NCBI GenBank assembly: GCA_021323675.1
Contig: JAJPKP010000027.1
Span: forward strand, 124,001 to 188,000
Length of the DNA stretch: 64,000 nt
Source: Pseudomonadota bacterium
Lineage (GTDB): Bacteria > Desulfobacterota > Binatia > Binatales > Binataceae
Direction of reading: 5' to 3'
In this document: piece by piece, positions 24,663 to 30,581 of the stretch
Layout: the number at the start of each line of letters is the position of its first letter
Numbering within the stretch: the stretch's first letter is position 1
The notes under the pieces: generated by a model
Told to the model about the DNA's origin: nothing
The model's input: only the letters and a program-made list of their open reading frames with translations
Databases searched by the model: none
Made by a program: the position numbers and the translations under genes

Positions 24663-25922
<1,260 letters not shown>

Positions 25923-26072: not shown

Positions 26073-26102
26073 TTGACAAGATTTGCTTTTTCTCTCTATA
26101 AG
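26073..26102 (+). promoter_or_regulatory. Near-consensus housekeeping promoter for the SBBP-exosortase pair
   Basis: TTGACA at 26073-26078, an 18-base pyrimidine-rich spacer, and TATAAG at 26097-26102. Perfect -35, five of six at -10. The start site would fall near 26109, leaving a 39-base leader with a strong GGGGGAGAG ribosome-binding site before the ATG at 26148. The same -10 hexamer and spacer length are found at the sdhC and mdh promoters. Confidence 0.75.
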
Positions 26103-26147
26103 CATCTAATTTACGAAGCTTCCGACAGGGCGGGGGAGAGCAAAAGA

Positions 26148-28409
26148 ATGAAGAAATCTTGGGTCGTTGTGGGCGCGACGACTGCGATTGCAGCGGTCGT
26201 CGCCGTGGGATGGCATCGGGGCAAAGCCGCGCTTGCCGTTCGGAAACCCGATGCGAGAAAGGTGATGGCGAATTTGCCTCTCGCATTCGAGCCAAACCAG
26301 GGGCAGACGGCCGCGGAAGTCCGGTACATGGCCAAAGGGTCCGGGTTCCGCCTGTTTTTGACTCCAACCGAAGCGGTCATCACGATGGACAAGCGGTTTG
26401 GCGAAGCCGCCGAAACAACGAAACCTGCTTCGCAGGCGAACGGGCCGATCGAACGGTCGGTGGTCAGAGTCAGGCTCGAGGGTTCCAATCCGAATGCCGA
26501 GATCTCGGGGCAGGGACGGCTTGCCGGCAAGATCAACTACTTGATCGGAAGAGACTCTTCGCGATGGCATCGGGGGATTCCGATCTTCGCATCGGTTTCC
26601 TATCGCCAGGTCTATCCTGGAATCGACCTCGTCTATCACGGCAGCGACCAGCAGCGGCTCGAGTACGATTTCGTGGTCGCTCCCAAGGCGGACCCCTCGT
26701 CGATCAGGATGGACATCGCCGGAGCGGACAAGCTTTCGGTCAATGCCGCGGGCGACTTGGTAATCGCGCTCAATGGGGCCGATCTGACGGAGCATCGGCC
26801 GGTCGCATATCAAACCATGAACGGTCAGCGACATCCGGTTGCCGCATCGTATGACCTGCACGGCGGCGAGGTGGGAATTCGCCTGGGCTCGTACGACCGC
26901 GCGCAGCCGCTGGTAATCGACCCGACCATCACGTATGCGAGCTACCTCGGAGGCAGCCAGAACGATATCGCGACGGGGGTGTTCCAGGACTCATCGGGAA
27001 ACATCTTTTTGGGCGGGTCCACGGCTTCGCCGAACTTTCCCACGAGCTCGGGTGCGTTTCAGACTTCGCTCAGCGGCACCCAGGATGCCTTTGTTACGAA
27101 GATAGCTCCCAATGGCACGGATCTGGTGTTTTCCACGTACCTGGGCGGCGACAATTCCACCTCGGGCGTCTCGATGGTGGTTGACCAGAACGACATTCCC
27201 ACGATCGTGGGAACGACCAGCTCTCCGGATTTTCCGGTGGTCAACGGGTTTCAGGTCTCCCTCAATGGAGAAAGCGACGGATTCGTTTCGCAGTTTAATC
27301 CGGACACAGGCGCTGACCTGTTGTTTTCCACCTACATCGGCGGAAGCGGCACAGATTGCGTAAACTCGGTTACGATAAACTCCGCGGGAAACCTGTTGCT
27401 GGGCGGCGTGACTTCTTCAGACGATTTTCCCGTGACCGAGGGTGCCTTTCAAACCACCTACGGTGGAGGAGCCACCGATGGGTTCTTCTCGGTCATCACG
27501 TCGGGCACCTTCAGTCTCGATATCTCCACCTACCTTGGCGGAAACAACGCGGACGCGGTAAACGGCATCGCGGTCGACTCCCAAAACAACGCCTATCTCA
27601 CCGGCAACACCGGGTCGAACAATTTTCCGACCACCAGCGGCGTCTTTCAGGCCAGCTTGAAAGGGACGGAGAACGCGTTTGTAACCAAGACCAACGGGCA
27701 GACCCTGACCTACTCGACGTTTCTTGGAGGCTCCAGCGCGGACTTCGGTACCAGCATCGCCGTGCCCGTCGACACTCCCTTCGAAGCGGCGGTGACCGGC
27801 GGGACCTCATCCGCCGATTTCCCGACCACCACGAATGCCACGCAGAAAAGCTTTGGGGGCGTTCAGGATGCCTTTGTTACGCAGATATCCGAGGACGGAA
27901 CGGGTCTGGAATTTTCCACCTACCTTGGCGGCAGCCAGAGCGACGCCGGCGCGTCGGTCAAGTATGTCACCCAATTTGACGCCGCCGTGGTTGGAAACAC
28001 TCAGTCAAGCGACTTTCCATTAAAGTCGTCAATTCAGGGCTCATTCTCCGGAAGCCAGGATGCCTTCCTGACCGATTTTCACCTGAGTGAGTCCAAGGTG
28101 GTGAGCTCGAGCGTGTTCGGAGGCAATCAGGCGACTGCCGGCACGTCGCTGTTCATCACTACCGGTGGAAGCGGCGCGTTGTTCGCCGGCTTCACCACCT
28201 CCGACAACCTGCAGGTGACCAGCAACGCGTTTCAGAAGACCCTTGCGGGCGGCAGCGATGCTTTCGTCGTTGGCGTCAAGTTCAGCTCCAGCGAACAGCA
28301 ACAGCAGAGCAAAAAGGGACCGAATCTCACGACCACTACGATCGGCCTTGGGCTCATCGCGATCTGGATCACCGCGGTGATGATCCGGAGGTATCGATTC
28401 GAGGCCTGA
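26148..28409 (+). CDS. SBBP-repeat beta-propeller surface protein with C-terminal sorting-like tail
   Basis: 753 aa from the ATG at 26148 (GGGGGAGAG upstream). An N-terminal hydrophobic segment (SWVVVGATTAIAAVVAVGW) serves for export. The N-terminal domain LAFEPNQGQTAAEVRYMAKG is the module that usually precedes SBBP repeats. From about residue 260 there are seven repeats marked by FSTYLGG-type motifs (YASYLGG, FSTYLGG, FSTYIGG, ISTYLGG, YSTFLGG, FSTYLGG, SSVFGG), each with DFP and DAFVTK strands, forming a propeller. After a Gln-rich linker, the tail is KKGPNLTTTTIG, about 17 hydrophobic residues, then RRYRFEA at the very end. This is the three-part layout of exosortase/archaeosortase sorting signals. 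The stop overlaps the start of the next gene, an exosortase-like protein. Cleavage site and anchoring are inference. Confidence 0.85.
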   Translation: MKKSWVVVGATTAIAAVVAVGWHRGKAALAVRKPDARKVMANLPLAFEPNQGQTAAEVRYMAKGSGFRLFLTPTEAVITMDKRFGEAAETTKPASQANGPIERSVVRVRLEGSNPNAEISGQGRLAGKINYLIGRDSSRWHRGIPIFASVSYRQVYPGIDLVYHGSDQQRLEYDFVVAPKADPSSIRMDIAGADKLSVNAAGDLVIALNGADLTEHRPVAYQTMNGQRHPVAASYDLHGGEVGIRLGSYDRAQPLVIDPTITYASYLGGSQNDIATGVFQDSSGNIFLGGSTASPNFPTSSGAFQTSLSGTQDAFVTKIAPNGTDLVFSTYLGGDNSTSGVSMVVDQNDIPTIVGTTSSPDFPVVNGFQVSLNGESDGFVSQFNPDTGADLLFSTYIGGSGTDCVNSVTINSAGNLLLGGVTSSDDFPVTEGAFQTTYGGGATDGFFSVITSGTFSLDISTYLGGNNADAVNGIAVDSQNNAYLTGNTGSNNFPTTSGVFQASLKGTENAFVTKTNGQTLTYSTFLGGSSADFGTSIAVPVDTPFEAAVTGGTSSADFPTTTNATQKSFGGVQDAFVTQISEDGTGLEFSTYLGGSQSDAGASVKYVTQFDAAVVGNTQSSDFPLKSSIQGSFSGSQDAFLTDFHLSESKVVSSSVFGGNQATAGTSLFITTGGSGALFAGFTTSDNLQVTSNAFQKTLAGGSDAFVVGVKFSSSEQQQQSKKGPNLTTTTIGLGLIAIWITAVMIRRYRFEA

Positions 28410-28996
28410 TGAGCACCGCGTCGGCGATAAGCGGAAGGGGATTCGTTCAAACGATCCCCTTCCGCTCGCTTCTTGTGCCGCTCGATCTCGCGCAGATCGC
28501 GATGGCCTTTATTGTGCTGTACTTCGCGATGAACTGGCAGATGCTGTGGCTGAGATCGTTCACGATGCACACGGTTATCCGGGTGGGCAGCCTGCTCGGG
28601 ATGCATCTGCAGCCCGTCGGTCCCGACGTCTTGTATTACAAGGACAAGCTGCACAAGTTCACCCTTAACTGCACGTTCGTTCACATGTACCTGGCGACGA
28701 GCTGCATCCTGTGGAACCGCCGCCGCTCGCTTAGCCACAATCTGATCCGGCTATGCGCCTACGCCATCTTCATGTTCGTTCTGAACATCGTGCGCCTCGA
28801 GATCGTTTTTCTTCTGCCCGACGATCCGCAGGAATGGGCGCATACACTGGTGACGGGCGCGTGCGGACTGATTGTGTATCTGGCGGTCGTGTACCAGATT
28901 GAACATCCGTTCGCGTGGTTCCTGACGCACGGGCCGGAACCGTTTCGCCCGTATCATCCCGACAGTCTGCTGCACGTCGCGTTTCCCAGTCTCTGA
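28409..28996 (+). CDS. Exosortase/archaeosortase-like integral membrane protein (candidate dedicated sortase)
   Basis: 195 aa; its ATG overlaps the TGA of the SBBP gene (TGATG), so the two are translationally coupled. The first membrane helix is QIAMAFIVLYFAMNWQMLW. An outside loop follows with VGSLLGMHLQPVGPDVLYY and then FTLNCTFVHMYLATSC. In exosortases this stretch reads as a helix with a late L-G, a G in the loop, and then a strand entering the active-site Cys; here Cys88. Next helix ends NIVRLEIV with Arg129, and EWAHTLVTG supplies His145. The Cys-Arg distance of 41 and the N-x-x-R and following His are those of the transpeptidase family EpsH/ArtA. The usual Cys-Ser-Gly or Cys-Thr-Gly is Cys-Thr-Phe here, so this is a divergent member. 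It lacks the extra domains of EpsH-type exosortases. Could be something else, but the order of features is hard to explain otherwise. Confidence 0.65.
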   Translation: MSTASAISGRGFVQTIPFRSLLVPLDLAQIAMAFIVLYFAMNWQMLWLRSFTMHTVIRVGSLLGMHLQPVGPDVLYYKDKLHKFTLNCTFVHMYLATSCILWNRRRSLSHNLIRLCAYAIFMFVLNIVRLEIVFLLPDDPQEWAHTLVTGACGLIVYLAVVYQIEHPFAWFLTHGPEPFRPYHPDSLLHVAFPSL

Positions 28997-29111: not shown

Positions 29112-30581
29112 ATGCTAACCAGGTTGAGGGCGTGCCGTACGGTCGCCGCGGCGTTGATGGCGATCGGACTGGCGGGATGCGCCACGAACCCCGCCACCGG
29201 CAAAGTTGTTCCAGTCGGGATGACCGGCAGTGCGGCCGAAAAGCAGGCCGGCCGCGAGCAGCATCCCGAGGTCCTCGAAGCGTTCGGCGGCTCCTACGAC
29301 AACCCTGCCCTGCAGTCGTACGTAAACGAAGTCGGCCAGAGGGTCGCAGCTCAAAGCGAGCGCAAGGGAATTGCCTACACCTTCACCGTGCTTGACACTC
29401 CGATCGTCAACGCGCTGGCGATTCCCGGCGGGTACATCTATGTCACCCGCGGCCTGCTCGCGCTCGTCAATGACGAATCAGAGCTGGCCGGCGTGCTGGG
29501 ACATGAAGTCGGACACGTAGCCGCGATGCATCACGCGCAGGCGCGGGCGCGGCAAACGCTGGGAGCGGTAGGGATGGCGGCGGGATCGATCGCGATGGGA
29601 CGAACGCCGCTCACCCGGGTCACGCAGGTCGCCGCCGTCGGCTACCTGCAGGCGTTCTCGCGCGAGGATGAGTACGAAGCGGACGCACTCGGCATCCGCT
29701 ACGCCGCCCGCGCCGGCTACGATCCTCGTTCGATGGCGACATTTTTGGCGTCGTTGCGCGAATACACGCGGCTGGAAGCGATCGAAGATGGGCGTTCGCC
29801 GGACTCGACCGACGAATTCGACTACATGGCGACGCATCCCACCGCGATCGACCGTTTTCAACGCGCTCTCGAAGAAGCCTCGAATCAAATTCCCGCCCAG
29901 CCGATCGTCGGCCGCAGGCCTTATTTCGCGAAGATCGACGGATTACTCTACGGCGATTCTCCCGCGCAGGGATTCGTCCGCGGCCGCGCCTTCGAGCATC
30001 CGATTCTGCGCGTAAGGTTCGAGGTTCCGCCCGGCTTTACCCTGTTCGACACGGCCGAGCGCGTATTTGCGGTCGGCCCTTCGAAATCGCTCATAGTATT
30101 CGACGCAACCGCCGAGAAGACGGGGATGGCGATGACCGAATATCTGAAGCAGGTCTGGGCCAGGGGCGTCGTTCTGATGGAAGTGAGGAAGGGGCAGGTT
30201 GGCGGTCTCGAAGCGGCCACCGGAACCACGATGGTTTCGACGCCGCGCGGACCGATGAATATCCGGCTGGTCGCAATCCGCACCGACGCCGAACATATAT
30301 ACCGCTTCCGTTTCGAGTCGCCTCCCAGCATCACCGCCCAGCTCACTCCCATGTTCGCGCAGACGACGGCGAGCTTCCGGGTTCTGACGGCGGAACAGGC
30401 GGCCGCGCTTAAGCCATGGAAAATCAGGGTGGTGATGGTCGGGAGCGGCGATACTGTGGGAGGACTCGCGCGCAGGCTGCCGTTTCAAACATACAAGCTC
30501 GAGCGCTTTCGCGTCCTGAACGGCCTGACTCCGGAAAGTAAAATCACCCCTGGTCAACAGCTCAAGACGATTGTCGAGTAG
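29112..30581 (+). CDS. M48-family metalloprotease lipoprotein with C-terminal LysM-like domain
   Basis: 489 aa. Lipoprotein signal ends at IGLAGCATNPATGK. The protease domain has GYIYVTRGLLALVNDESELA, the zinc motif HEVGHVAAMHHAQ and the third ligand EDEYEADALGIRYAARAGYD. This is the BepA/YcaL/LoiP arrangement of periplasmic M48 enzymes that survey outer-membrane proteins. Unlike BepA, it has no TPR tail. Instead the last 50 residues (VMVGSGDTVGGLARRLPF, then LNGLTPESKITPGQQLK) resemble a LysM-type murein-binding repeat. It begins 115 bases after the exosortase-like gene, so it may be read from the same promoter, but a link is not shown. Confidence 0.9.
   Translation: MLTRLRACRTVAAALMAIGLAGCATNPATGKVVPVGMTGSAAEKQAGREQHPEVLEAFGGSYDNPALQSYVNEVGQRVAAQSERKGIAYTFTVLDTPIVNALAIPGGYIYVTRGLLALVNDESELAGVLGHEVGHVAAMHHAQARARQTLGAVGMAAGSIAMGRTPLTRVTQVAAVGYLQAFSREDEYEADALGIRYAARAGYDPRSMATFLASLREYTRLEAIEDGRSPDSTDEFDYMATHPTAIDRFQRALEEASNQIPAQPIVGRRPYFAKIDGLLYGDSPAQGFVRGRAFEHPILRVRFEVPPGFTLFDTAERVFAVGPSKSLIVFDATAEKTGMAMTEYLKQVWARGVVLMEVRKGQVGGLEAATGTTMVSTPRGPMNIRLVAIRTDAEHIYRFRFESPPSITAQLTPMFAQTTASFRVLTAEQAAALKPWKIRVVMVGSGDTVGGLARRLPFQTYKLERFRVLNGLTPESKITPGQQLKTIVE

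Follow-up and report, generated by a model that had tools for sequence, protein, structure and literature searches.

Within the window, the whole stretch of 64,000 nucleotides that was analyzed, a gene encoding a protein with SBBP repeats and a small open reading frame, ORF2, were located one after the other downstream of icd (24663-25922) and upstream of an M48 peptidase gene (29112-30581) (Table 1). The 195-aa frame of ORF2, whose ATG the initial annotation had described as overlapping the SBBP stop codon, was confirmed, with TGA and ATG overlapping in TGATG. The start of the SBBP gene, which had been placed at TTG 26073, was replaced by ATG 26148. This is likely the better start: GGGGGAG lies ahead of it, the N-terminus that it gives is signal-peptide-like, and the TTG forms the first three letters of a TTGACA hexamer. 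The two hexamers of what had been called a strong promoter, TTGACA-18 nt-TATAAG, are present and make up a possible promoter, but the site fails a consensus scan, in which about one chance site was expected in the region, since its second hexamer ends in G. ORF2 looks coding, as its GC3 of 0.79 is similar to that of the neighbouring genes, and the composition gave no clear sign of a recent transfer.

Table 1 Features of the SBBP gene and ORF2, with positions in the window.
Feature	Position	Strand	Description or basis
Possible promoter	26073..26102	+	TTGACA-18 nt-TATAAG; sequence only
SBBP gene	26148..28409	+	753 aa from ATG 26148, chosen instead of TTG 26073; N-terminus signal-peptide-like
DUF7948 domain (PF25778)	26286..26927	+	E 1.3e-68
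Seven SBBP repeats	26940..28271	+	PF06739 1e-20; about 63-67 residues apart; repeat starts and seven DAFV-type motifs
Candidate sorting signal of the SBBP protein	28317..28406	+	GPNLTTTT, hydrophobic helix IGLGLIAIWITAVMI (28341-28385), basic end RRYRFEA (28386-28406); sequence and tail scan
TGATG	28407..28411	+	SBBP stop overlapping ORF2 start; sequence; candidate translational coupling
ORF2, divergent exosortase/archaeosortase-like membrane protein	28409..28996	+	195 aa; TIGR04178 E 3e-4
Cys88, candidate nucleophile	28670..28672	+	Invariant column of alignment A1
Asn126-Ile-Val-Arg129, NxxR motif	28784..28795	+	N126 and R129 in invariant columns of A1
His145, candidate catalytic His	28841..28843	+	In A1, two residues short of the conserved His column

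The seven SBBP repeats probably form a seven-bladed beta-propeller. DUF7948 proteins were found in 33 of the 96 relatives, and SBBP/DUF7948 propeller proteins have the same domain order as the window protein. One relative (L073, in genome G019) is 40% identical to the window protein over 765 aligned columns; the alignment extends to residue 748 of the 778-residue query, after which the ends differ. A genome-collection search for the SBBP protein returned no match, with patterns that probably lay on poorly conserved stretches.

The tail of motif, hydrophobic helix and basic end that had been read at the end of the SBBP protein is present as its last 30 residues. None of the known sorting-signal families matches this tail, and tblastn of the own genome with the tail returned only the tail itself. 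Among about 45 SBBP homologues at the fetched loci of the class, a few of them in genes cut by contig ends, none had a helix-plus-basic tail or an exosortase-motif gene downstream or nearby. As the initial annotation had stated, no EPS locus or PEP-CTERM genes are near: no EPS gene was observed among the flanking genes examined, and PF07589, the model of PEP-CTERM substrates, had no match in the source genome at E<=1.

Comparison with NCBIfam (18950 models) showed that ORF2 matches TIGR04178, a profile named in advance, with an E of 3e-4, although its 21 bits as a protein are under the cut-off of 23. The match covers profile positions 14-84 and, on the ORF2 side, starts only past Cys88. Apart from TIGR04178, ORF2 matched none of the exosortase or archaeosortase models of NCBIfam at E<=10, and the Pfam search returned nothing useful; ten short exosortases of the class matched 9-18 exosortase/archaeosortase models each. 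When the genome was searched with TIGR04178, ORF2 scored 22.9 bits (E 3.3e-4), or 23.2 bits with its neighbours in frame. Over 148 class genomes, the inspected non-exosortase matches (L162, L163, L164, the ABC transporter in L018/L175 and its relative in L174) scored at most 19.1 bits, in an inspection of the weaker matches that left out G087, at 16.5 bits. In the same search, a real exosortase K (L161) scored 24.7 bits and a decayed-looking exosortase (L173) 20.5 bits. The latter (G003:C38:5046-5234) appears frameshifted or decayed, and keeps NLFR and a His in a frame without the Cys motif. TIGR04178 matches at E<=0.005 were present in 163 of the 395 phylum genomes, and in 160 of these 163 they were above the cut-off.

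Two further comparisons were less favourable. A home-built exosortase profile, from which a wrongly collected frame (L008) was left out, gave ORF2 6.4 bits and an E of 1.1 among about 3630 sequences, which we counted against an exosortase; 12 of 3000 shuffles of ORF2 scored equally or better. In single-sequence hhalign, the ORF2 score of 25 was above 100 shuffles and below eleven of 150 membrane decoys, some of which were real exosortases or overlapping frames. Single-sequence hhalign was thus unable to separate ORF2 from membrane decoys, and is not used as evidence.

The initial annotation had read a full exosortase layout from Cys88, Arg129 and His145, and the residues it listed (G64, G71, C88, N126-I-V-R129 and H145) are all in place. 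In A1, a MAFFT alignment of ORF2 with 41 class exosortases (42 rows), C88, N126, R129 and W170 are invariant and the stretch from C88 to D139 is free of gaps, at an identity of 11-19% for ORF2. Cys and Arg are 41 residues apart, a distance shared by 42 of the 61 exosortases of the class with readable spacing. The Cys, Asn and Arg of this layout are in register, but His145 is two residues off. The motifs of the exosortase family are Cys-x-Gly, Asn-x-x-Arg and His-x3-Gly (PMC1569441). ORF2 contains the Cys (C88) and the whole Asn-x-x-Arg (N126-I-V-R129), and reads C88-T-F without the Gly, which is not universal since two class exosortases (L009 and L129) read C-T-A. Its His region reads H145-x4-G150; many class exosortases carry HEYxxQG in place of His-x3-Gly. 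Besides ORF2, the motif C[STNAD]-x36-N-x2-R-x14-21-H occurs in 42 of 63 exosortases of the class, in none of 3582 other ORFs and in 6 of 20000 shuffles of ORF2; because it was drawn up with ORF2 already in view, these counts are supportive but not independent.

Variation at the catalytic positions was also observed elsewhere. An exosortase-like protein, L160 (G038:C22:54960-55241), has CDG and NLLR and no His at the usual position. In the exosortase homologue L010 (G044:C1:36071-36334), Ser replaces the Cys (EASKGIRS) and Gln the His (GIFQVFSGW), and from these substitutions it is probably catalytically dead.

AlphaFold2 on ORF2 alone was uninformative (pLDDT 49.2, pTM 0.33). With A1 the values rose to 79.8 and 0.68, a gain driven by an alignment that was chosen on the exosortase hypothesis. 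The A1-based model has helices at 91-102, 108-135 and 140-165 and has C88, R129 and H145 all lying towards one end of its bundle, as judged from helix boundaries only and again driven by the alignment. Foldseek against the PDB found no relative of ORF2. In the phylogeny, the ORF2 branch had a length of about 9-10 changes per column, which is too long for ORF2 to be placed in the tree. Taken with the TIGR04178 match and the in-register Cys, Asn and Arg at family spacing, the alignment-dependent gain in AlphaFold2 points to membership in the exosortase superfamily; ORF2 is thus probably an exosortase/archaeosortase, though a very divergent one.

Homologues of ORF2 were not found by tblastn in the 96 relatives and 395 phylum genomes, where all non-self matches had E>=0.005 and at most 18.6 bits, nor in the genome, viral and plasmid collections. 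In a genome of the same genus (G001), the searches run found neither the SBBP gene nor ORF2. The gene order in G010 is icd, a 254-codon frame (lipoprotein-like), M48, a homologue of the 31599 gene and an ABC transporter. The interval between icd and M48 holds a different gene there, which indicates that the pair sits in a slot that is filled otherwise in G010. For the M48 peptidase gene itself, the search of 12 family genomes gave a single strong homologue, in G010 (58% identity).

These results bear on the possibility that ORF2 is a small membrane protein with no relation to exosortases, that the C-terminal tail of the SBBP protein does no more than anchor it in the membrane and that the likeness arose by chance or convergence. 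The sub-threshold TIGR04178 score, the weak result of the home-built profile, the similar hhalign scores of decoys and the failure to find any ORF2 homologue would all fit such a protein, whereas a profile named in advance did match, the motif is absent from the other ORFs and the tail occurs only where the exosortase-like gene is; we regard this explanation as unlikely. Slightly less probable still, in our judgement, is that ORF2 belongs to the exosortase superfamily but has lost its transpeptidase action on the SBBP tail, and works as a protease only, with a changed chemistry or as partner to a second enzyme. The missing Gly of Cys-x-Gly, the His out of register and the extreme branch are compatible with such a change, and relatives such as L010 show that catalytic residues are lost in some cases, but ORF2 keeps Cys88, N126 and R129 at family spacing, and the tail is encoded next door.

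Comparable pairs were identified in the same class. In L122, the gene of a confirmed IPTL-CTERM protein precedes that of a confirmed XrtH by about 110 bases, and in L113 and L004 tailed proteins are located just upstream of exosortases, with tails that we take to carry PEP-type and VPEID-type motifs, respectively. The protein at L004 (G019:C102), which ends in VPEIDPDMAKSGLAFSILMLLLLAERFRRR, lies directly 5' of a long exosortase, and the two are a candidate second dedicated pair. The XrtH/IPTL-CTERM system shares with the window pair a short single-domain exosortase, the 41-residue spacing between Cys and Arg and a substrate gene directly upstream (L122), and differs in having IPTLxxWG instead of GPNLTTTT and CTG instead of CTF. 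In EpsH/XrtA with PEP-CTERM, Cys, NxxR and His follow one another as they do in ORF2, and the tail shows the same succession of motif, helix and basic end, whereas the window tail is without a PEP motif and ORF2 has only 195 aa. It is very improbable that the pair represents an XrtH/IPTL-CTERM system that has diverged strongly, as the window proteins match neither TIGR04177 (XrtH) nor TIGR04174 (IPTL-CTERM) at E<=10, and the echo of PTLS in PNLT, even with the tail IPTLSEWG adjoining XrtH in L122 and an identical Cys-Arg spacing, amounts to a few shared letters, which are weak evidence.

The pair resembles known exosortase/substrate pairs and matches no named type. The best account, which we hold to be reasonably probable, is that ORF2 is an orphan enzyme of the exosortase superfamily dedicated to a single substrate, the propeller protein, and that the two form a two-gene sorting unit. 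The idea of a dedicated pair is supported in that only the SBBP protein with an exosortase-like neighbour carries the tail, in that the pair sits in one syntenic slot and in that a substrate-exosortase pair is confirmed in the class. The initial proposal of a one-substrate, one-sortase operon is supported in part: the gene arrangement, the tail, a profile match that is weak but specific, the register and spacing of the residues and a compatible fold model are shown, and the strong promoter is not. More tentatively, and with somewhat greater doubt than belief on our part, ORF2 may found an exosortase class that has no name yet, with a signal peculiar to it (GPNL and a Thr run, helix, RRYR) and one seven-bladed SBBP substrate, a proposal that rests on one sequence.

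In the two-gene sorting unit that we favour, the SBBP/DUF7948 propeller would be exported through its N-terminal signal, and ORF2 would probably be co-translated with it. The layout of the tail suggests that the C-terminal helix and basic end would keep the propeller in the inner membrane, placed such that GPNLTTTT faces the periplasm. By the mechanism of the superfamily, Cys88, with Arg129 and probably His145, would cut at or near GPNLTTTT, after which the propeller would be transferred to an acceptor or released; cleavage, an acceptor and a surface location of the SBBP protein are what we infer by analogy.

If this account is right, the sequence range of exosortases extends past the current profiles, and the locus would provide a minimal system of one enzyme and one substrate, in which cleavage and attachment could be traced on a single protein. 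It would also suggest that SBBP/DUF7948 propellers, which are common without a tail in the class, may come under the control of a sorting enzyme by the gain of a tail.
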